64,000 nt of DNA, taken from the NCBI RefSeq assembly GCF_000585995.1, contig NZ_CP007410.1:5883001-5947000 (forward strand), written 5' to 3'. The notes beneath the pieces were generated by a model, which was not told where the DNA came from, ran no database searches, and was given only the letters and a program-made list of their open reading frames with translations. This stretch comes from Pseudomonas brassicacearum (lineage in GTDB: Bacteria; Pseudomonadota; Gammaproteobacteria; Pseudomonadales; Pseudomonadaceae). The translations under genes and the position numbers were made by a program. Each line of letters begins with the position of its first letter. Position 1 is the first letter of the stretch. This document shows positions 11,293-21,493 of this stretch, in pieces.

Positions 11293-12126
11293 TTATGGGT
11301 AACTGAAGCTCTTGACCAGCGTCAGCTCGCCCACTGCCCGCATCGGCACCAGGAAGGTTTCCATCTTTTCGTTTGGCGTGCCTTCTTCCGTGATGATGGT
11401 CACCTGCGCCGTGGTCAGGGCTTGTTGCGCTTGCTCTCCACCGCCCTCACCCTCTTCGTCGCCCTCCTCACTGCGATAACCGCCGCCGTAGTAGTTCACG
11501 TACACCAAGTACTGGCCTTTGATCGGCGCGGGCATGGCGAAGATTTCCGGGCCGTAGCCGGTGGTGACGTCAACATCGAGCGCGGCGCCGTTGGGAACGA
11601 CGCGGTCGCCGTACCAGATGTGGGCGCCGTCGGGGGTGACGAGGTGCAAGTCCAGGTCGGTGCCATCGCTGTCCCAGGTCAGCAAGACCCGCAGCTTGGC
11701 CGGGGTGGCGCCACCGCTGGTGTTGAGGAACTGCGTACGGTGGCGCTGCTGGCCATCGGGGCTGCGCACTTCAACGCTGTTGCTGCCGTTGGGGAACGAG
11801 AACGGCCGGTCGAAGCGACCTTCCTCATCCAGCTTCAGCGGCAGGCTGACGCCGTTGACGATCAACTGGCCCGGCGCATTGCTGTCCTTGGGCGCGCTTT
11901 TGATCTGCCCAGTGATGCGGGCGGTGTTGGCCTGGCCTGGGGGCGTATTGACCGACGAGGCCGGGTAGTTGACGGTCTGGCTGAAGCTTTCGCCTTCACC
12001 GCCCGGCGCCCCGCTGCGCCAGCCGCCAATGGGGGTGTCGAGCTTGATGGAGTCAGCGGCCATGGCCGGTGGCAACGCGGTCAGGGCGCAGAGCAACAGC
12101 AAGACCTGTGGATAACGGAGTGTCAT
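11293..12126 (-). CDS. magF: MagF: secreted DUF2135 protein of the alpha-2-macroglobulin operon
   Basis: The 277-residue protein has a cleavable signal peptide ending in PAMAA and is predicted periplasmic. The DUF2135 region (LDLHLVTPDGAHIWYG, then GQYLVYVNYYGG) is shared with MagA at the other end of the operon, as are the GSNSVEVRS and C-terminal VKSFSY segments. An acidic Glu/Gly-rich insertion (about residues 221-234) is absent from MagA. The start lies 3 bases after the magE stop. The operon corresponds to P. aeruginosa magA-F and E. coli yfaP, -Q, -S, -T, -A. A supporting or scaffold role for the macroglobulin MagD is the likely job; no enzymatic residues are visible. Confidence 0.85.
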   Translation of the reverse strand: MTLRYPQVLLLLCALTALPPAMAADSIKLDTPIGGWRSGAPGGEGESFSQTVNYPASSVNTPPGQANTARITGQIKSAPKDSNAPGQLIVNGVSLPLKLDEEGRFDRPFSFPNGSNSVEVRSPDGQQRHRTQFLNTSGGATPAKLRVLLTWDSDGTDLDLHLVTPDGAHIWYGDRVVPNGAALDVDVTTGYGPEIFAMPAPIKGQYLVYVNYYGGGYRSEEGDEEGEGGGEQAQQALTTAQVTIITEEGTPNEKMETFLVPMRAVGELTLVKSFSYP

Positions 12127-12129
12127 GGT

Positions 12130-13749
12130 CTATTCCAGCAAGAGGTGACGGGCGAGCCCTTCGATATAGGTTTCGTCCTGGCCGTTGGGGTGAGCTTCAA
12201 AGGCCAGGTGCAGATATTCATGGGTCAGGTCGAGGCGGTCCTGCAGCGACAGCACGCCGCGCACATAGATGCGCTGGCGCTCGCGGTCGACGTAAGGCCG
12301 GCCGAAGGCGACGCGGCAGACGGCGAAAGAACTGATTTCGTTGTAGCCCACTTCGCTTTCCAACCGCGAACGCCAGCCGCGCCGTTGTTTCAGCAGCCAA
12401 TCCTGGGCGGCGGGCAATGCCTCGCAAGACGCCACCGGATTGTCCCAGCGGCTGAGGCTGGCGCGTGGGTAGGCATGCAGCAGGATGGCGTCGTAACGCT
12501 GGCCGCCGTTGGCCTGTTCGACGGCTTGCAGCCAGGACAGCTTGTCCGGGCCGGCCTGGTCGGAGTGATAGGTGACATCGGTGCCGGCCAGGACCAGATC
12601 ACTGGTCCAGGCCGCAATCGCACGGGTTTCAGCCGTCGCCGGGCGTGGCGCGACGCGCTGGCGATGGCTGCTGTCGTCGATGCTCAGGCAATCGCCGTGG
12701 CGCTGGGCGTTTTGCAGCAGGTAGGTGCGGATCGCCACGGCCAAGGCCTTGGCGGCTTCGACGGGCTCGGCCTTGGCTTCGCGTTGCAGGACCCGGGCGA
12801 CGTATTCCTCCCGGTCCAATCGCGCCACCAGCTTGCCGGGCATCAGGAACAGCTCGCCGTCGCTGTGGATATCCAACTGATTGCCGTTGGCGAATTCGAC
12901 GCGGTAGTCACCGCGCAGTTGCCCCGGCGCGGCCGGGCGGTCGCCCGACATCACCCGTTGCAAGGGATAACGGGCAAACAGCCCCACTTCCACGCAACGC
13001 CCGGTTTCCGCTGGCCAACGCGACGGTAGCGCCGCCGCCAAACCCTCACCATAGACCTTCAGCACCTGCTGGCTGGTGCCGCGTCCACCGGCCCACACCG
13101 GAGTACCGTCCGCCAGCCAACCGGCGAAACCGCCCTGACGGGACGACGGCCCCTGATTACCCAGCCAGCTCCAGGTCTTGACCCGCAGACGGCTGCCCAA
13201 CTCGCCGACCAGTCGCCCGTCCGCCGCGTTGAGCACCACGTCCAGCAGCACCCGCCGCGCTTGATCCTGGGCCGGCAGCGTGGCCAGGGTCTTGAGCAGT
13301 TCAACGACGGGCACCTGGGTCTGGGGTTGCAAGGCCGGCAAGTCCAACAGCCATGCCGGCGCCTGGCGGGCCTGCCAATAGTCGCGCCAGTTCGAGGCCG
13401 AAAGCCCGAGCCGCTGAGGTTCGAAATACAAGCCGCAGGATTTCACCAGCGCCTGGTCGCGTCCAATGCTCTGCCCGGCATTGCAGCAGTAGACCTCTTC
13501 CTTGGACTCACCCCGGCATTCATAGACCGGTTCACGGGCGTCGGTGTCCACCAGCCAGGCGTAGACAAAGATCTTCCACAGACTGCCCAACGGCGCCTGC
13601 AAGGAATCCGGCAGCGGCTGGCGGTCGAGCACCTGGGTCTGGCTGACCCGCAACAGTTGCCCGTCGAAGGCCAGGCGCAACGGCTCGTCCTGCGCTGTCG
13701 CCAGCGCAGGAATCAAGCACAACAACCACCCAAGCCACCGCCTGCGCAT
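12130..13749 (-). CDS. magE: MagE: secreted DUF2300 protein with PBP-like, SpoIID-like and HExxH regions
   Basis: Started at ATG 13749, one base after the magD stop, the protein has 539 residues and a signal peptide (about 1-20, cleavage after ATA-Q). I see three notable regions. Residues 56-59 read SLWK inside PLGSLWKIF, like the SxxK of penicillin-binding proteins, with KSC at 103-105 and KTW at 191-193 as possible SxN and KTG equivalents. Residues 312-350 (DREEYVARVLQREA, then EAAKALAVAIRTY) resemble SpoIID/LytB proteins. Near the C terminus HEYLH at 510-514 with Glu530 looks like a zinc-peptidase HExxH site. E. coli YfaQ is the DUF2300 prototype and is uncharacterised. The three-part reading is mine and needs structural confirmation. 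Confidence 0.83.
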   Translation of the reverse strand: MRRRWLGWLLCLIPALATAQDEPLRLAFDGQLLRVSQTQVLDRQPLPDSLQAPLGSLWKIFVYAWLVDTDAREPVYECRGESKEEVYCCNAGQSIGRDQALVKSCGLYFEPQRLGLSASNWRDYWQARQAPAWLLDLPALQPQTQVPVVELLKTLATLPAQDQARRVLLDVVLNAADGRLVGELGSRLRVKTWSWLGNQGPSSRQGGFAGWLADGTPVWAGGRGTSQQVLKVYGEGLAAALPSRWPAETGRCVEVGLFARYPLQRVMSGDRPAAPGQLRGDYRVEFANGNQLDIHSDGELFLMPGKLVARLDREEYVARVLQREAKAEPVEAAKALAVAIRTYLLQNAQRHGDCLSIDDSSHRQRVAPRPATAETRAIAAWTSDLVLAGTDVTYHSDQAGPDKLSWLQAVEQANGGQRYDAILLHAYPRASLSRWDNPVASCEALPAAQDWLLKQRRGWRSRLESEVGYNEISSFAVCRVAFGRPYVDRERQRIYVRGVLSLQDRLDLTHEYLHLAFEAHPNGQDETYIEGLARHLLLE

Positions 13750-13750
13750 G

Positions 13751-16700
13751 TCAGTTAACCGTGATCTGACCAAGCGCCGGTTTCTGTTCCCGTGCCTGAT
13801 GCTGTGGCGCGTAGACCTGGGTGAAGCGCACCGGCGGCAAAGTGAACTGGCCCTTCTGGGAGAAGCGCACCAAGTGCCGCAGGCGCAGCTCGCCACTGAG
13901 GGCATCCACCGGCACTGCATACGCCATCTGGCCCGGTTCGAAGCGCGCCCTTTCCAGGGAAGTCGGTTCGCTGTCGGCCTTGCCCATCAACTGGATGCCC
14001 CAAGTGGTGCGCTCCACATCGGCGCCCGGCGGCAACGGCACTTCAAGCATGCCGTAGCGCAGCGGTGTCGGCGCCTTGCTGTTGATGATGACTTCATCCA
14101 AGTAGAGGCTGTCGCTGGACAACGGCTTGTTGCCCACGGCTTCGAGCTTGAAGGTGAACGCCTCGTCGCCCGGCACCAAACGCGACAGGCGCCGGGTAAT
14201 GGACACGGCCATCGGCGCCAGCGGCGGTTGCTGGCTCTGGAAGCTCAGTGCGGCTTGCAGTGGACGCTCCTGGGCACCGGTGAGGGTCAGTTGGGTCGGC
14301 AACTGCGCGCCTTGCCATTGCCAGTAGGTTTCACCGGTCGCGCCTTGCTGGGCTTTCCAGCCTTCGCCCGGGGCCAGGGCCACGGCTGGCGCGGCCTGTT
14401 CGATGCTGCGCTGCAGCCAGGTCAAGGCCAGGGCCCGTTCCAGGGTCGACTGTTGCGGCAGCACACGTTCCAGCAAGGCGCTGGCGCGGGCCTGGTCGAA
14501 GGTTTGCAACGACAGGACCAGGGCTTCGACGAATGGCTGCGAGCTGAGTTCCAGCTGCTGTTGCGCGGCGTCCACCTGACGGCTGAAGGCGGCCGGCAAC
14601 GGCACCTTCGCCTGCTTGGCGAGGGACGCGGTCAGTACGCGGGCGCTAGCCAAGCCAAGGGCTGAATCCGGCGCGCTCATGACCAGGCTGTCTTCACCGC
14701 TGTCCAGCACGCTTTCGGTAGTGTCTTCACTGGCCTTGGCCAGATCGTCCATCAGCCCGCTGAGCAGGGTGTTCACCGGCAATTGCATCTGCTTGGCGAA
14801 CGACAGGATCAACGCCCGTTGCAGCAGCGGCGTATCACCGGCCTGCTTGGCGTAGACCTCCAGCACCCGCTGCCAGTGTTCCGGCGGTAGGCTCAGGTCC
14901 AGGGCCTTGCTGGCGTGCCAGTCGGCGTAATAGGCGTAGGCCGTGAGGAACGCATCCGGCTCACCGTCCTGGCCCCACCAGGTGAAGCTCGCCGACGGCC
15001 CGGCCATTTGCACCAGGCGCAAGCGGCTGTTTTGCATGATCAGGCGCAAGCGATCGCGGATCTGCGGGTTCGCCGCCAGGGTCGGGTAGGCGATGCTCAA
15101 TGGCAGCAGACGGCTGGCGGTCTGCTCGACGCCACCGTAGGGGTAGCTCAACAAGTCATCCAGGGCCGAACGGAACAACGCTTGCGGGCTGTCATCCAGG
15201 CGCAGGCGGATGTCGCTGGCGTCGGCCGGCAGGGTCAGCGGGGTCTCGCCACTCGCTACGTCGAAGCGCTGGCTCTGGGTGACTTGCCAACCATTGCCGC
15301 TGGCGTTCAGGCGCACCGCCAAGGTGTCCTGGGTTTCGCCGTTCACTTGCAACTGCACGCTCAGGTCGCCGCTGCTCAGTTCGATTGCCGGCAGCGCCAC
15401 ATAGTTGATGCCGTTTTTCAGCTCTGCCACCACCCGTTGTTCAGTACCGGCATAGCGGATCAGCAGTTCAGTGGTCAGCGGCTTTTCCGCCTGGCTGAAG
15501 GCGAACAGGCCCAGTTGCGGCTTATCGCCCGTGCGGAAGCGGGTCGGGCCGCTCCACTTCAGGTACAGCGGTTTTTCCGAGGCGATGAATTGTTTCTTCT
15601 GCCCCACCTGGCCGTCGTCAGAGATGGCCCGGGCGGTGATGCGCCAGCGGGTCAGGGAATCCGGCATCTTGAAGGTGAAGCGGACCTTGCCGCTGGCGTC
15701 GGTGACCAGCTCCGGTTGCCACGCAGCCGTGTCGACGTCTTCACGCCGCGGCCGCTCCAGCACCTTGACGCCACGCTCGCTGCGGTTGGCCTTGCCCGGC
15801 GCGCCAGGGCTGCCCGGCAGCGCCACGTCGTAGCTGATGAACGACAGGCTGGCGCTAGTGCGCACGTTATTGCGACGCGGGTGATAGAAGAACTGGTCGA
15901 TGGTCGGCGCCACTTCCGGTTGCAAGGCATAGACCATTTCGTCGACGACGCTGACGGTCAGGTGCGCCGGAATCGCCTTGCCGGCGAACTGGGTGCTCAG
16001 GTCCACGGTCACCGTGTCGCCAGGGCGGTAGGTGGCTTTGTCAGTGACGACCGCCACATCGATCTGCGGTGCAACCACCTTGATACCGGCGTTCTGGAAG
16101 CTGTACTGGCCGCCCTTGGTGTAGAGCACCGAGAACGTCAGGTTCGGGGCGAAGGCGTCCTTCACTGGAATGCGCGCGCGATATTGGGTGTCGCTGAGTT
16201 TTTCCATCTTCAGCCAGTCACTGCCCTTGGACAACAGCGCCGTGGCCTCGACCTTGTCCCGCTCAAGGGACAGCAGCGCATCGCTGACCGGTTCCGGGAA
16301 GGTGATCAGGGCCAGCGCTTCGTCACCGGCCTTGTATTCGGCTTTATCGAGGACGATCTCGACCGTGCCCGGCACGGCCTTGATGCCTTCACCGGTCACC
16401 GCATGGGCGGCGGCGCCGATGACCCGGCCGTGGTCGTCCTTGAGCGTCAGGTTGTAGGTGCCGGGACGATCGAAGGTCAGGCTGAAGCCCTTGTCCTTGG
16501 CCGTCAGCTTGCCTTCACCCGTAGTCTGGTCTTCCAGGCGCACCCAGGCGTAGCTGCCCGGGGTCACGGCTTTGGCTTGTTCGTTGCCGCCTTCGTTGGC
16601 GTAGCTGAACGCCACTTTCTGGCCAACGGCGCTGAAGCGCTGGGGTGCGCTCAGGCGGAAATTCGCCGCGCCACGGTCGATGAGGATTTCCTTGGTGGTC

Positions 16701-18319
16701 TTGACCCGATACGCCGCGCCATCGCTGGCGAACACGGTGAGGGTGTAGCGGCTCGGCTTGTCGGCGGCCGGCAGGTCGAGGGTCGCGTTGCCCTTGGCGT
16801 CGGTGGTCACTTCGCTACTGGTCAGCTCGACCGGGAATTGCCCCAGGTATTGCAGCTCGTTGTCCACCATCGACAGTTGCTGGGCCCGCAGGCTCAGGCT
16901 CACCGTGGCGTTGACCACCGGCTTGCCATCCGGGTATAGCAGCACCAGGTTGCCCTTGACCGGCTCGCCAGTGCGGTAATCCTGCTTGGCCAGGTTCAAG
17001 GCGATTTCAAAGTGCGGCTTGATGTACTCAGCCACGCGGAAGGCGCTGCTGTAGAGCTGGTCCTTATAGCTGAAGCGCAGCTCGTAGCCGCCGGCCACGG
17101 CGTTTTCCGGCAGTTGGAAACGGCCCTGGGTACCGGCCTTGGAATCCAGCTTCAGAGCCAGGGTTTGCAGGGCGGTGCCGGTGGCATCCAACACGCTGAC
17201 ATTGACGTCGGCGGCCGCCGGTTGCACCGAATCACGGGCGTTCTTGAACTCACGGCCGACGATTTTCAGCGACACCCAATCCCCCGGGCGATACAGCGGC
17301 CGGTCGGTGAAGGCATAGAGCTTGGTGTCGTAGATTTCGCTGTCGTAGTAGAAGTTCTCGGAGACGAATACGCCGCCCTCCTCGTCTTCGCCAATGACGA
17401 ACGAGCGTTCCGGACTGACGTGCTTGAGGCGCAGCAAACCGTCTTCATCGGTGGCACCGCTGCTCATCACACCCAGGCCGTCGGTCCACAGCACATTGAC
17501 CTTGGGCACCGAACGCCCTTCATGCTTGCGTGCGGCCCAGACCAGCAACTCGTCGCCGGCAATCTTGCTCACCGCCACGGTGTTGGAAACGAAGACCATG
17601 GTGGTCGCGCGGTACTTACCAATCAACGCCTCCACCAGGTACAGGCCCGGTTTCAACTGGCCCAGCGGCACATAGACATTGCCCGGCGCGACACTGACGA
17701 ACTCACTGGACGAACCGGCCAGGTTGACGCCCGCCGGCGGCTGGATCGGCTTGGCCTGCCACAATGGATAACGGAACTGGCTGACCACCGGCAAACCCGG
17801 GATCAAGGCAAATTGTGCCGGTGCGTCGTACGGCGTCGGCGCCACCAGGGCGTCGCCGATCTTCAGCTCCGGCACTTCTTCGGTCACTTGCTGGCGGGAC
17901 TCGTAGGAGAACGCCCGCTGCATCACCCGACGGGACTTGCGGTACCAGTTGTCCCACAGGTACGCGAGGGTGTTCGACAGGCCTTCGCCTTTGAACTGGC
18001 CGTCGCTGACCACGCGGTGCAGGTTCTTCTGGCGCTTGAGAAAGTCCAGCGGCTTGTCGATGCGATAGACGCGGATATCGGCACCGCCATAGGGCTCCAT
18101 GCGGAACCGGCGATAGTCGCGGCCCGGCGCTTCGAGGCGAACCATGGCCTGCTCATCGCTGGCAAAGCTGCTGTCGGCCAGCAGGAAGAAGCTTTCACCG
18201 GCCACCGGCGTGTAGCCGCTGGGCTCCACCGTGTCTTCGGCGTTCACGAGAGGGGCCAGCAACAGGGCAAACAGCAGGGGCAATTTTGAACACAAGCGCA
18301 GCATGCGGGCACCGGTCAT
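13751..18319 (-). CDS. magD: MagD: bacterial alpha-2-macroglobulin, YfaS-like, without thioester Cys
   Basis: The start chosen is ATG 18319, which overlaps the magC stop as ATGA; ATG 18304 is an alternative. The 1522-residue protein has a signal peptide ending in LVNA and is predicted periplasmic. It has the macroglobulin order: MG-like beta domains (for example [19 protein letters not shown]), a bait-like middle, the alpha-2-macroglobulin family segment ([20 protein letters not shown]) and the thioester-domain helices. At the thioester position it reads GVEQ (residues 1063-1066) where CxEQ would be found, so no thioester can form; this fits the YfaS/MagD class. Macroglobulins trap proteases. 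This class is thought to protect the periplasm, alongside the partner genes of the operon. Confidence 0.93.
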
Positions 18320-18975
18320 TGGGAGAGAAAGTTGAGTCGATAGACGCCGATGAAGTTGGGGTTGGCTGCGTCGGGTATCCATCGGGTGTCCTTCCAGTTC
18401 ATGAGTTGTTGCAGGCTTGCGGAGCGCATGCCGTTGTCGGTAGGGGTTGTGGTGCCGGTGTGATAGGCGATGTAGCGGCCCATCCAGATCATCAGGTGCT
18501 GGTCGTCGCCCTGATCGAAGAACATCAGGTCGCCGGGACGGGCCTGGGCGACATCGCGGCCCACCAGGCGACTGTTGAACTGGATCAGCTTGATGGCGTT
18601 GACGTAGGGCCCGACCTTGCCGCCGCCCTGCTGCCATTGCTGGGCGAGGCGCCGTTGCGCATCGCTGAGGGGCAATTCCGGTGGCAGGTAGCGATTGGAC
18701 AGGCCATTGCTGCGCAGCCATTTGTCATCGTGGACCTTCAGCGCTTCATTGGCGGCAAAGCGCACCAGCCCGGCGCAGTCTTGCTGATACCAACGCGGGC
18801 TCGGGCCTTTGGTCAGCTGTTCCTGGGCAATGCGCACGAACCAGGCACGAAACACCTGGGACTGCTGCACATCCAGCGACGGTGCCTCGACGGCCAACGC
18901 CGGCCCGCCCAGCAGCAGCGCCAGCAGCAGCGCCCATCCGGGATTTCGAATCAGTCCTGTCACAGGGCTTTCCAT
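18316..18975 (-). CDS. magC: MagC: DUF1175 protein with NlpC/P60-like Cys-His residues
   Basis: From ATG 18975 the protein has 219 residues; a GTG at 18963 overlapping the magB stop and preceded by GGAAA is an equally plausible start. A signal peptide covers about residues 8-28. The segment [10 protein letters not shown] (Cys67) resembles the DCSGLV nucleophile motif of NlpC/P60 peptidoglycan hydrolases, and PGDLMFF followed by QHLMIWMG (His160) resembles the second half of that active site. DUF1175 (E. coli YfaT) is therefore probably a papain-like cysteine hydrolase or amidase acting in the periplasm. The gene overlaps magB at one end and magD at the other. Confidence 0.85.
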
Positions 18976-20675
18976 TCCAGCGGCAGCCATTGCCAGTGAC
19001 CGTCCGGCTCGCTGCCTTCGGGCAACGTCAGGGCGTATTTGCCGTAGCCGCCGAGGGTGCGCAGTTTCGGGATCAGGTAGGTTTGCGCGGCGTTGTAGAA
19101 CACCGGTTCCATGTCCTGGGGCAGGCTGTCGAGGGTTTCGCGCTGCATCAGTTGCGCCATGGAATCCGGGCCGAAGTAGAACGGCATCAGCAGGTCCTTG
19201 GGCACCACGTCAGCCATGGGCGGGAAGCGCTTGTCGAGGGTGCCGAGGGCTTTGTCCACCAGCTTGTCGTCGAGGGAAAACAGCAACGTCGAACCGTGGC
19301 GCGCCAGACTGACCCGCAGGAACGCCTTGCCGGTAATCGCGTCAGGCTGCTCCGCTTCCTTGGCCAGGTAGGGGCCGAAGTTGGAGCTGACCTGGCGCAG
19401 CCACTGGTGCGTCGGGCCTTGCTGCTTCTCGACCACCGGGAAGGCATGTTCGGCGACGTTGTTTTCATAGGCGCCCACCATCGAACCGAACAGGTTGCCC
19501 AGGTCGGCGTCGAGCTTGCCGTCGTCTTCGTTCAGGCTCGCCACCAGCAGCGGCGTGTACAGGCGCGAATCGGCGTACCAGCACAGGCCCGCCGCGCCGG
19601 CCATATGGTCGACCATGGCCTGGGCGGCCTTGTCGTCGGCGCCGAGTTTTACCAGCAGCGGCTTCTGTTGTTCGGCCGCCAGGGGCAAGGTTACGCAGGC
19701 ACTGGCGCCCATGGGCATGGCTTGCCAGATCGGCTTGAAGTCGAAGTCCGGCTGGTTTTCCAGCTCGTCCATGGCCAGGAAGCTGTGCCAGCCCTTGTCG
19801 TCCATGTCGAAACGCAACCCGGCGAAGTTCGGGATGAAACGCTGGTAGCCCATGGCGAGCACGCTGGCGTTGACCGAGATGCGTTGCTTGACCTCCGGTG
19901 CCTTGGACGGCAGGCCGAAGGCTTCGGGGAAGAGTTTGTCGCCGTTGAGCAAGGCGGCCAGGGCGGTCGTCGAAACGCTGCCCGGTTCAACTGCGGACCC
20001 GCTGGCCGGGTCGTACAGCTTGGTCGGGTTGGACAGCACGACCAGCTTGTCGCCATGGGAGGCGAAGAGCAGGGATTTGCTGGCGTTGTAGCTGAGTTGG
20101 TAGAGCGCGACGTCATCGCCGCCGACTTTCAGGTCGCTGAGTTTGCTCAGCTGCGTATCGTCCAGGGCAACTTTCGCCAACGGTTCGAGCATCTTGGCCA
20201 GGCCACCGCGGTCCATCACCAGCAGGAAATCCTTGAGACGACCGTCGGCACCGCGCCACAGCGCCACATCGGCCGGCTGGTCGAAAATCTCCTCGATCAG
20301 GCTGTCCTGCAACTTGAGGTCATGCTCGTAGATGATCCGGCGCAGGCTGCCGATCAGCCCCAGGCGGTCGGCGTGGGCCTCGTAATAGAAGACGAAGTCC
20401 TCGGTGAGCGTGGCCTTGAGGAACGGCACCGCCAACAGGTCCTTGGGCAACTGGCTCAGGGAATGCGCCTCGAGCAAGCCGTCGGGCCGGCTCAGGCCGA
20501 GCTTGTCCAACGCCAACTCCATGGGCGGCGCCTTGGGCTTGGTCATGAACCAGCCCAACCCGGCGGCGACACCGGCCACCAGGCACAGCCCGATCAGCAG
20601 CGCCGGCCAGCGGCGTACAGGTTTGGCGACAGGGGTCGGCGTGGTCGGGGAAGCAGTGTTGTCGCTCATATTCAC
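18960..20675 (-). CDS. magB: MagB: membrane-anchored DUF2138 protein
   Basis: The 571-residue protein has one transmembrane helix at about residues 23-45 after a short cytoplasmic tail, so its large domain (about 500 residues, no further hydrophobic helix) faces the periplasm. It fits DUF2138, the family of E. coli YfaA, by length and operon position. The start is GTG 20675; an ATG two codons later is possible, but AGG spacing favours the GTG. No catalytic motif is recognisable. As the only clearly membrane-anchored product, it could tether the Mag complex to the inner membrane. In P. aeruginosa Mag proteins are reported to interact; assignment here rests on synteny. Confidence 0.86.
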
Positions 20676-20704: not shown

Positions 20705-21493
20705 TTAGTAGTTGAAAGTCTTGACCAGCAACAGATCGCCAATGGCGCGCAGGGGCACGACAAAGGTCTCGCGTTTTTCATTGACGGTGTTTTCGTTGAG
20801 CACCAGGTTGATCTGCGAGGTAATGACCTCGTTCTCGTTGCTGGTTTCGTCGAAGTTATAGCCGCCGTTGCCGTAGTTGCCCCAATAGTTCACGTAGACC
20901 AGGTAAGTGCCGTGCATCGGCGCGGTCATGGTGAACATTTCAGGGCCGGGGCCATCGACACCATCCGGGTCAAGGCCGCCGCCGTTGGTCAGCGCCGGTT
21001 GGCCGAAGAACGCATGCTGGCCGTCGGGTGTAATGATGTGCAGGTCCAGTTCGGCCTTGGGGTCGTCCCAGCCCAGCACCACGCGGATCTGCGCCGGGGT
21101 CCGCAGGTTGTTGGCCTCATAGAACTGCACCCGCTTGAGGGACTGGCCCTCGGAGCTGCGCACTTCGACGCTGTTGGAACCGGCACCGAACGCATACGGT
21201 CGAGCGAAACGCCCCTCGTCGTCGGTGTAGAGATTAAGTGGATTGCCGTTGACCGCCAGGCTGTGGGGCGGACGGGCGGCGCCCATAGCCTTGAGTCGGC
21301 CCTCGATCATCGTGCGGTTGCGCTGCACGCCCCGGTCGATGGGCGGTGTGGGGTAGGCAACTTGCGGGTTTTCAGTGCGATCGAGCAGGCCGCTGTAGCG
21401 CCAGCCCCCCACCGGTTCCGACAGCTCAGCCGAAGGCTGCGCCCACGCCATCGGCGCGCCCATGAGCACGATCAACAATGAAAGAAAACGCAC
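20705..21493 (-). CDS. magA: MagA: secreted DUF2135 protein, first gene of the mag operon
   Basis: The 262-residue protein starts at GTG 21493, seven bases after a perfect AGGAGG ribosome-binding site (21501-21506), and has a signal peptide ending in AWA. DUF2135 segments are LDLHIITPDGQHAFFG and TYLVYVNYWGNYG, both closely paralleled in MagF. It lies 29 bases before magB and heads the operon magA-F. E. coli YfaP is the nearest named relative. It is probably a periplasmic beta-sandwich partner of the macroglobulin. The strong ribosome-binding site and long leader suggest that translation of this first gene is a control point. Confidence 0.86.
   Translation of the reverse strand: MRFLSLLIVLMGAPMAWAQPSAELSEPVGGWRYSGLLDRTENPQVAYPTPPIDRGVQRNRTMIEGRLKAMGAARPPHSLAVNGNPLNLYTDDEGRFARPYAFGAGSNSVEVRSSEGQSLKRVQFYEANNLRTPAQIRVVLGWDDPKAELDLHIITPDGQHAFFGQPALTNGGGLDPDGVDGPGPEMFTMTAPMHGTYLVYVNYWGNYGNGGYNFDETSNENEVITSQINLVLNENTVNEKRETFVVPLRAIGDLLLVKTFNY

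Follow-up and report, generated by a model that had tools for sequence, protein, structure and literature searches.

The magE gene, yfaQ in E. coli, was analysed in a 64,000-nucleotide stretch of the 6.65 Mb genome of Pseudomonas brassicacearum (contig NZ_CP007410.1, positions 5,883,001 to 5,947,000; the whole stretch is termed the window), where it lies within a mag operon (Table 1). Its product is 55% identical to E. coli YfaQ over the full length, and the closest named relatives among the matches listed are from Pseudomonas. The predicted structure is confident, with a predicted local distance difference test score (pLDDT) of 89. An earlier sequence-only reading had proposed that a penicillin-binding protein (PBP)-like, a SpoIID-like and an HExxH region are combined in this one protein, and the predicted folds and residue conservation support that reading. 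Together they show MagE, at the level of models and alignments, as an exported protein with three domains: an SxxK acyl-serine domain of the class D beta-lactamase/BlaR-sensor type, a SpoIID-type domain and a C-terminal minimal gluzincin-like domain.

Table 1. Features of magE and of the surrounding mag operon (positions in the window; counts refer to 347 MagE relatives; ORF, open reading frame)
Feature	Position	Strand	Basis
magE/yfaQ ORF, 539 aa	12130..13749	minus	ATG at 13749, stop 12130-12132
Signal peptide, residues 1-19 (MRRRWLGWLLCLIPALATA)	13693..13749	minus	By-eye reading; low N-terminal pLDDT; E. coli YfaQ reported to have a Sec signal peptide (PMC12282094)
Class D beta-lactamase/BlaR-sensor type domain, residues 20-244	13018..13692	minus	Predicted fold
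S56-L-W-K59, SxxK	13573..13584	minus	S, K in 347/347
S104-C-G106, SxN position	13432..13440	minus	347/347
K191-T192-W193, KTG position, aromatic third residue	13171..13179	minus	K, T in 347/347
SpoIID-type lytic transglycosylase domain (predicted), residues 250-437	12439..13002	minus	Predicted fold
E324, aligned with E101 of C. difficile SpoIID	12778..12780	minus	Alignment to 5i1t and 5txu; 347/347
Minimal HExxH (gluzincin-like) domain, residues 438-539	12133..12438	minus	Model, structural neighbours, stand-alone homologues
H510-E-Y-L-H514	12208..12222	minus	H, E, H in 347/347
E526 and E530, candidate third zinc ligands	12160..12174	minus	347/347 and 346/347; both in 29/29 rows of C-terminal alignment
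magA, DUF2135	20705..21493	minus	Family match
magB, DUF2138	18960..20675	minus	Family match
magC, DUF1175, NlpC/P60-like	18316..18990	minus	DUF1175 match above cut-off; sub-threshold NLPC_P60 match (E 0.0013); PDB 7bk8 'MagC' E 1.1e-115
magD, type II alpha-2-macroglobulin	13751..18400, start codon approximate (ORF 13751-18721)	minus	Pfam MG2, A2M_BRD, A2M
magF, DUF2135	11293..12126	minus	Family match

Conserved sites and domains of MagE

Conservation was scored over 347 distinct MagE relatives, a redundant set with 23 representatives under 70% identity and with E. coli YfaQ lying outside it. All the motif positions named in the sequence-only reading were located where it had put them. SLWK is the sole SxxK in MagE and HEYLH the sole HExxH; an SxxK arose in 47% of 20,000 shuffles of the protein and is unsurprising alone, while an HExxH arose in 0.7% and is unlikely by chance. 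Conservation across relatives tests the motifs better. Sixty-four of the 539 columns are invariant. They include S56, K59, S104, C105, G106, K191 and T192 in the first domain, R323, E324, D359, S361, Q364 and R365 in the second, and H510, E511, H514, P521, E526, A533 and R534 in the third. E530, D525 and H520 are kept in 346, 345 and 344 relatives, respectively; the residues singled out earlier (S56, K59, H510, E511, H514 and E530) are constant or nearly so. H510 and H514 alone are invariant among the nine histidines. In E. coli YfaQ, Tyr replaces H520 and Thr replaces A533, and the other conserved site residues are retained. Eight cysteines are also invariant, four, two and two in the successive domains, a pattern expected of disulfides in an exported, periplasmic protein.

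Both the fold and the SxxK of the penicillin-binding/serine beta-lactamase superfamily were found in residues 20-244. The canonical second motif of this superfamily is SxN, SxV or YxN and the third is KTG or KSG. Neither is present in MagE: the second position reads SCG in all 347 relatives, with the Ser retained, and the third reads KTW, KTY or KTF throughout (residue 193 is W in 339, Y in 6, F in 2 and G in none). Because two of the three motifs fail, the domain was not filed as a PBP and is, as judged from its residues, PBP-like only. The site is more plausibly an altered acyl-serine centre next to an aromatic residue than a dead one. MagE shares with class D beta-lactamases and with the sensor domain of BlaR1 the fold, the SxxK and the K-T of the third motif; it differs from them in having SCG for SxV/SxN, KT-aromatic for KTG, and four invariant cysteines.

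The second domain scores above the curated Pfam SpoIID cut-off (34 bits against 23) and below that of the NCBIfam SpoIID/LytB domain model (25.7 bits against 83.3, with positions 2-67 of 270 matched). SleC was the only SpoIID-type entry among the 50 structural matches listed, which included neither 4rwr nor 5i1t. The helix pair that had been placed at residues 312-350 is borne out by predicted helices at 313-324 and 330-347 within a SpoIID fold, and E324 falls on the SpoIID catalytic Glu. The C. difficile SpoIID variant E101A is reported to be inactive (PMC6221140), and a SpoIID of the Gram-negative Waddlia to be a lytic transglycosylase acting on Gram-negative peptidoglycan (PMC6635528). MagE has the fold and catalytic Glu of the SpoIID/SleC lytic transglycosylases; unlike in those enzymes, the domain sits inside a larger exported protein.

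Residues 430-539 were modelled with a pLDDT of 91.3, and the structural neighbours of the HExxH domain, all weak matches, are nearly all zincins. A C-terminal profile gave only chance-level matches in the PDB (angiogenin, E 0.05; selecase, E 0.63). Pfam searches with 29 C-terminal rows returned DUF2300 in every row and otherwise weak matches, such as Peptidase_M78 in two rows (best E 0.062). In the metzincins the signature is HExxHxxGxxH, with His as third ligand. A metzincin site was rejected for MagE, where F or L occupies the Gly position in 347/347 and H520 is Tyr in 3/347 and in E. coli YfaQ. In minigluzincins (abylysin, selecase), IrrE and M1 aminopeptidases, the HExxH helix is followed by a Glu-bearing helix, an arrangement that MagE shares, as it does the domain size of ∼100 residues; the sequence match to these families is not significant, and Cys442 and Cys478 are invariant in MagE. 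The predicted combination recalls BlaR1, where one chain carries both a sensor domain of class D type and a protease of gluzincin type; both of its parts appear among the structural neighbours of the MagE domains. BlaR1 is a membrane protein with these domains in the reverse order, whereas MagE is exported and has the SpoIID domain between the two.

The Pfam annotation obscures this arrangement. Two stretches of MagE score above the PF10062 (DUF2300) model, the first corresponding to the SxxK domain's helical portion and the second comprising the end of the SpoIID domain and the HExxH domain. Comparison of profiles for residues 80-201 and 402-522 gave a probability of 0.6% and E 0.096 (shallow profiles, Neff about 3), and the secondary structures differ. 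A tandem duplication is therefore unsupported and the name 'tandem DUF2300' misleads; we infer that the model mixes the two parts.

A stand-alone HExxH protein and the mag operon

Six genomes assigned to the Magnetococcia (for three, the matching proteins bear the name Magnetococcales) encode the C-terminal domain alone, as proteins of 125-158 aa with HEYxH, HP and both Glu residues. The stand-alone gene lies between magD and magF in four; in the other two, the locus ends at an adjacent contig edge and magF is retained. A profile of the first two MagE domains had a single weak match among the 48 genomes of the class, and none among the six. All six carry magC, and the other genomes of the 48 have neither magC nor the stand-alone gene. 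Since the stand-alone form occurs in a mag operon without the PBP/SpoIID part, the constant element of MagE is its HExxH domain; prediction and conservation show it to be the part kept when the other two domains are absent. The wall-type domains were either added by fusion or lost from the Magnetococcia.

Magnetococcia MagF also carries an N-terminal LprI lysozyme-inhibitor domain, over the Pfam cut-off in three of the four proteins scanned (L135:8296-9363, L138:10030-11100, L136:9894-10985 and L134:7143-8435). The domain is a hint that the operon shields peptidoglycan from lysozyme-like enzymes, VgrG3 being described as one of these.

In the window, magE is separated by one base from magD and by three bases from magF. 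The encoded MagD has a bait region, with YGGVEQ at ORF residue 1191 as the thioester site, Gly replacing Cys; no CXEQ is present in the magD ORF. The E. coli orthologue YfaQ (PF10062) lies in the same gene order, yfaA-yfaT-macroglobulin-yfaQ-yfaP, with no basic difference. In 80 named loci, those of the best 80 of 365 relatives, a DUF2135 gene follows magE in all 80 and magD precedes it on the same strand in 78, the other two loci beginning near a contig end. magC was found in 74 and magB in 73; the seven loci without magB or magC have little upstream DNA. Many Burkholderiales loci (L053, L054, L085 and others) have two DUF2135 genes downstream of magE, whereas the window has one such gene upstream of magB. 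The PADLOC defence models gave no match to MagE, MagC or MagD at E 0.01.

Of the 59 genomes that represent the genus, 26 carry magE. One genome of the genus has it as two overlapping matches, broken near the 3′ end (G034:C1:230540-232155); in another, a second match is partial and limited to residues 369-491 (G018:C1:2284401-2284772). At family level, 29 of 148 genomes had a DUF2300 match, 28 of them over cut-off; at order level the count was 7 of 293, with 6 over cut-off. Among 398 genomes drawn from the phylum, 16 had a match: 15 passed the cut-off, and the sixteenth fell below it and contained five stops. DUF1175, the magC family, is over cut-off in 15 of the 398 phylum genomes, the same 15. 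Both families were detected in the E. coli control genome. The Thermotoga maritima control has DUF1175 and lacks DUF2300, and the operon there may have a different partner.

Possible role of MagE in MagD processing

A 2025 study describes E. coli YfaQ as having an N-terminal transpeptidase-like and a C-terminal SpoIID-like part and a Sec signal peptide; delta-yfaQ cells are wider, their phenotype network comprises genes of the wall and envelope, and they have phenotype links to delta-mepK, delta-mepS and delta-nlpI; the authors propose that YfaQ takes part in the turnover or assembly of peptidoglycan (PMC12282094). The main text of that paper does not mention peptidase, zinc or HExxH, PMC5764988 does not mention zinc or metalloprotease, and a literature search on DUF2300 found no paper; in the excerpts searched, the HExxH domain is not described. 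The stand-alone form in Magnetococcia, the co-occurrence of DUF1175 with DUF2300 and the absence of signs of DUF2300 duplication are new here. MagD, one of the type II bacterial macroglobulins that lack a thioester, protects against VgrG3 and gives limited protection against Tae1, both of them peptidoglycan-targeting effectors of the type VI secretion system (T6SS), but does not protect against TseH (PMC12663445). MagD forms of higher mass appear in delta-magE (PMC5764988), MagB is required for a 100 kDa MagD form, and the passages on type II macroglobulins name no protease that makes it. MagC, NlpC/P60-like with a solved structure (7bk8), is called peptidoglycan-interacting in a title within a reference list, and its family is described as inactive.

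We tentatively favour a reading in which MagE is a metalloprotease of the periplasm, directed to the cell wall, with MagD as the protein it processes. The HExxH domain would be a zinc protease with MagD as its substrate, in a processing or maturation step from 165 to 100 kDa, and the two wall-type domains may bring it to peptidoglycan at sites of damage or make it respond there. This proposal draws on the folds and conserved sites, the adjacency of magD, the stand-alone HExxH gene in the place of magE and the co-occurrence of DUF1175 with DUF2300, and also on the action of MagD against wall-targeting effectors and the wall phenotypes of delta-yfaQ. A more elaborate version, which we consider doubtful, would make MagE a soluble analogue of BlaR1 gated by wall damage: the acyl-serine and SpoIID domains would read peptidoglycan broken by incoming T6SS effectors and switch on the gluzincin, and MagD would be cut, perhaps in the bait region, so that the thioester-less macroglobulin is armed or released.

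Alternatively, MagE could be a multi-enzyme for peptidoglycan remodelling, in which the SpoIID domain cuts glycan, stem peptides or esters are the substrates of the SxxK part, the HExxH domain works as an endopeptidase or amidase of the wall, and the effects on MagD are indirect. Two of the three domains have wall-acting folds, and the links of delta-yfaQ to the mepK, mepS and nlpI deletions, the title on MagC and the LprI domain of Magnetococcia MagF point the same way; however, the Magnetococcia operon keeps the HExxH domain without the other two, and MagD itself is altered in delta-magE, and we regard this alternative as somewhat unlikely. Less probable again is a non-catalytic wall-binding scaffold or MagD chaperone derived from three degenerate enzyme folds. 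The replacement of KTG by KT-aromatic and of SxN by SCG, the described inactivity of the MagC family and a chaperone role suggested by the published authors are consistent with it, but the constancy of S56, K59, E324, H510, E511 and H514 in all relatives would be unusual for a dead enzyme. The published suggestion that MagE works in the cytoplasm, where it would take off the signal peptide of MagD or help MagD export, could explain the higher-mass MagD and accords with an earlier localisation cited in PMC5764988; it is very improbable given that MagE has a signal peptide of its own, also reported for E. coli YfaQ, eight invariant cysteines and folds typical of exported enzymes.

For the family, the 'tandem DUF2300' label has hidden an architecture in which an acyl-serine sensor fold and a gluzincin-like domain are joined as in BlaR1, but within a protein that is exported. 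The Magnetococcia stand-alone form marks the core of MagE and is small and convenient for structural work and assay. If it is true that the HExxH domain makes the 100 kDa form of MagD, the question would reduce to a two-residue mutagenesis test.
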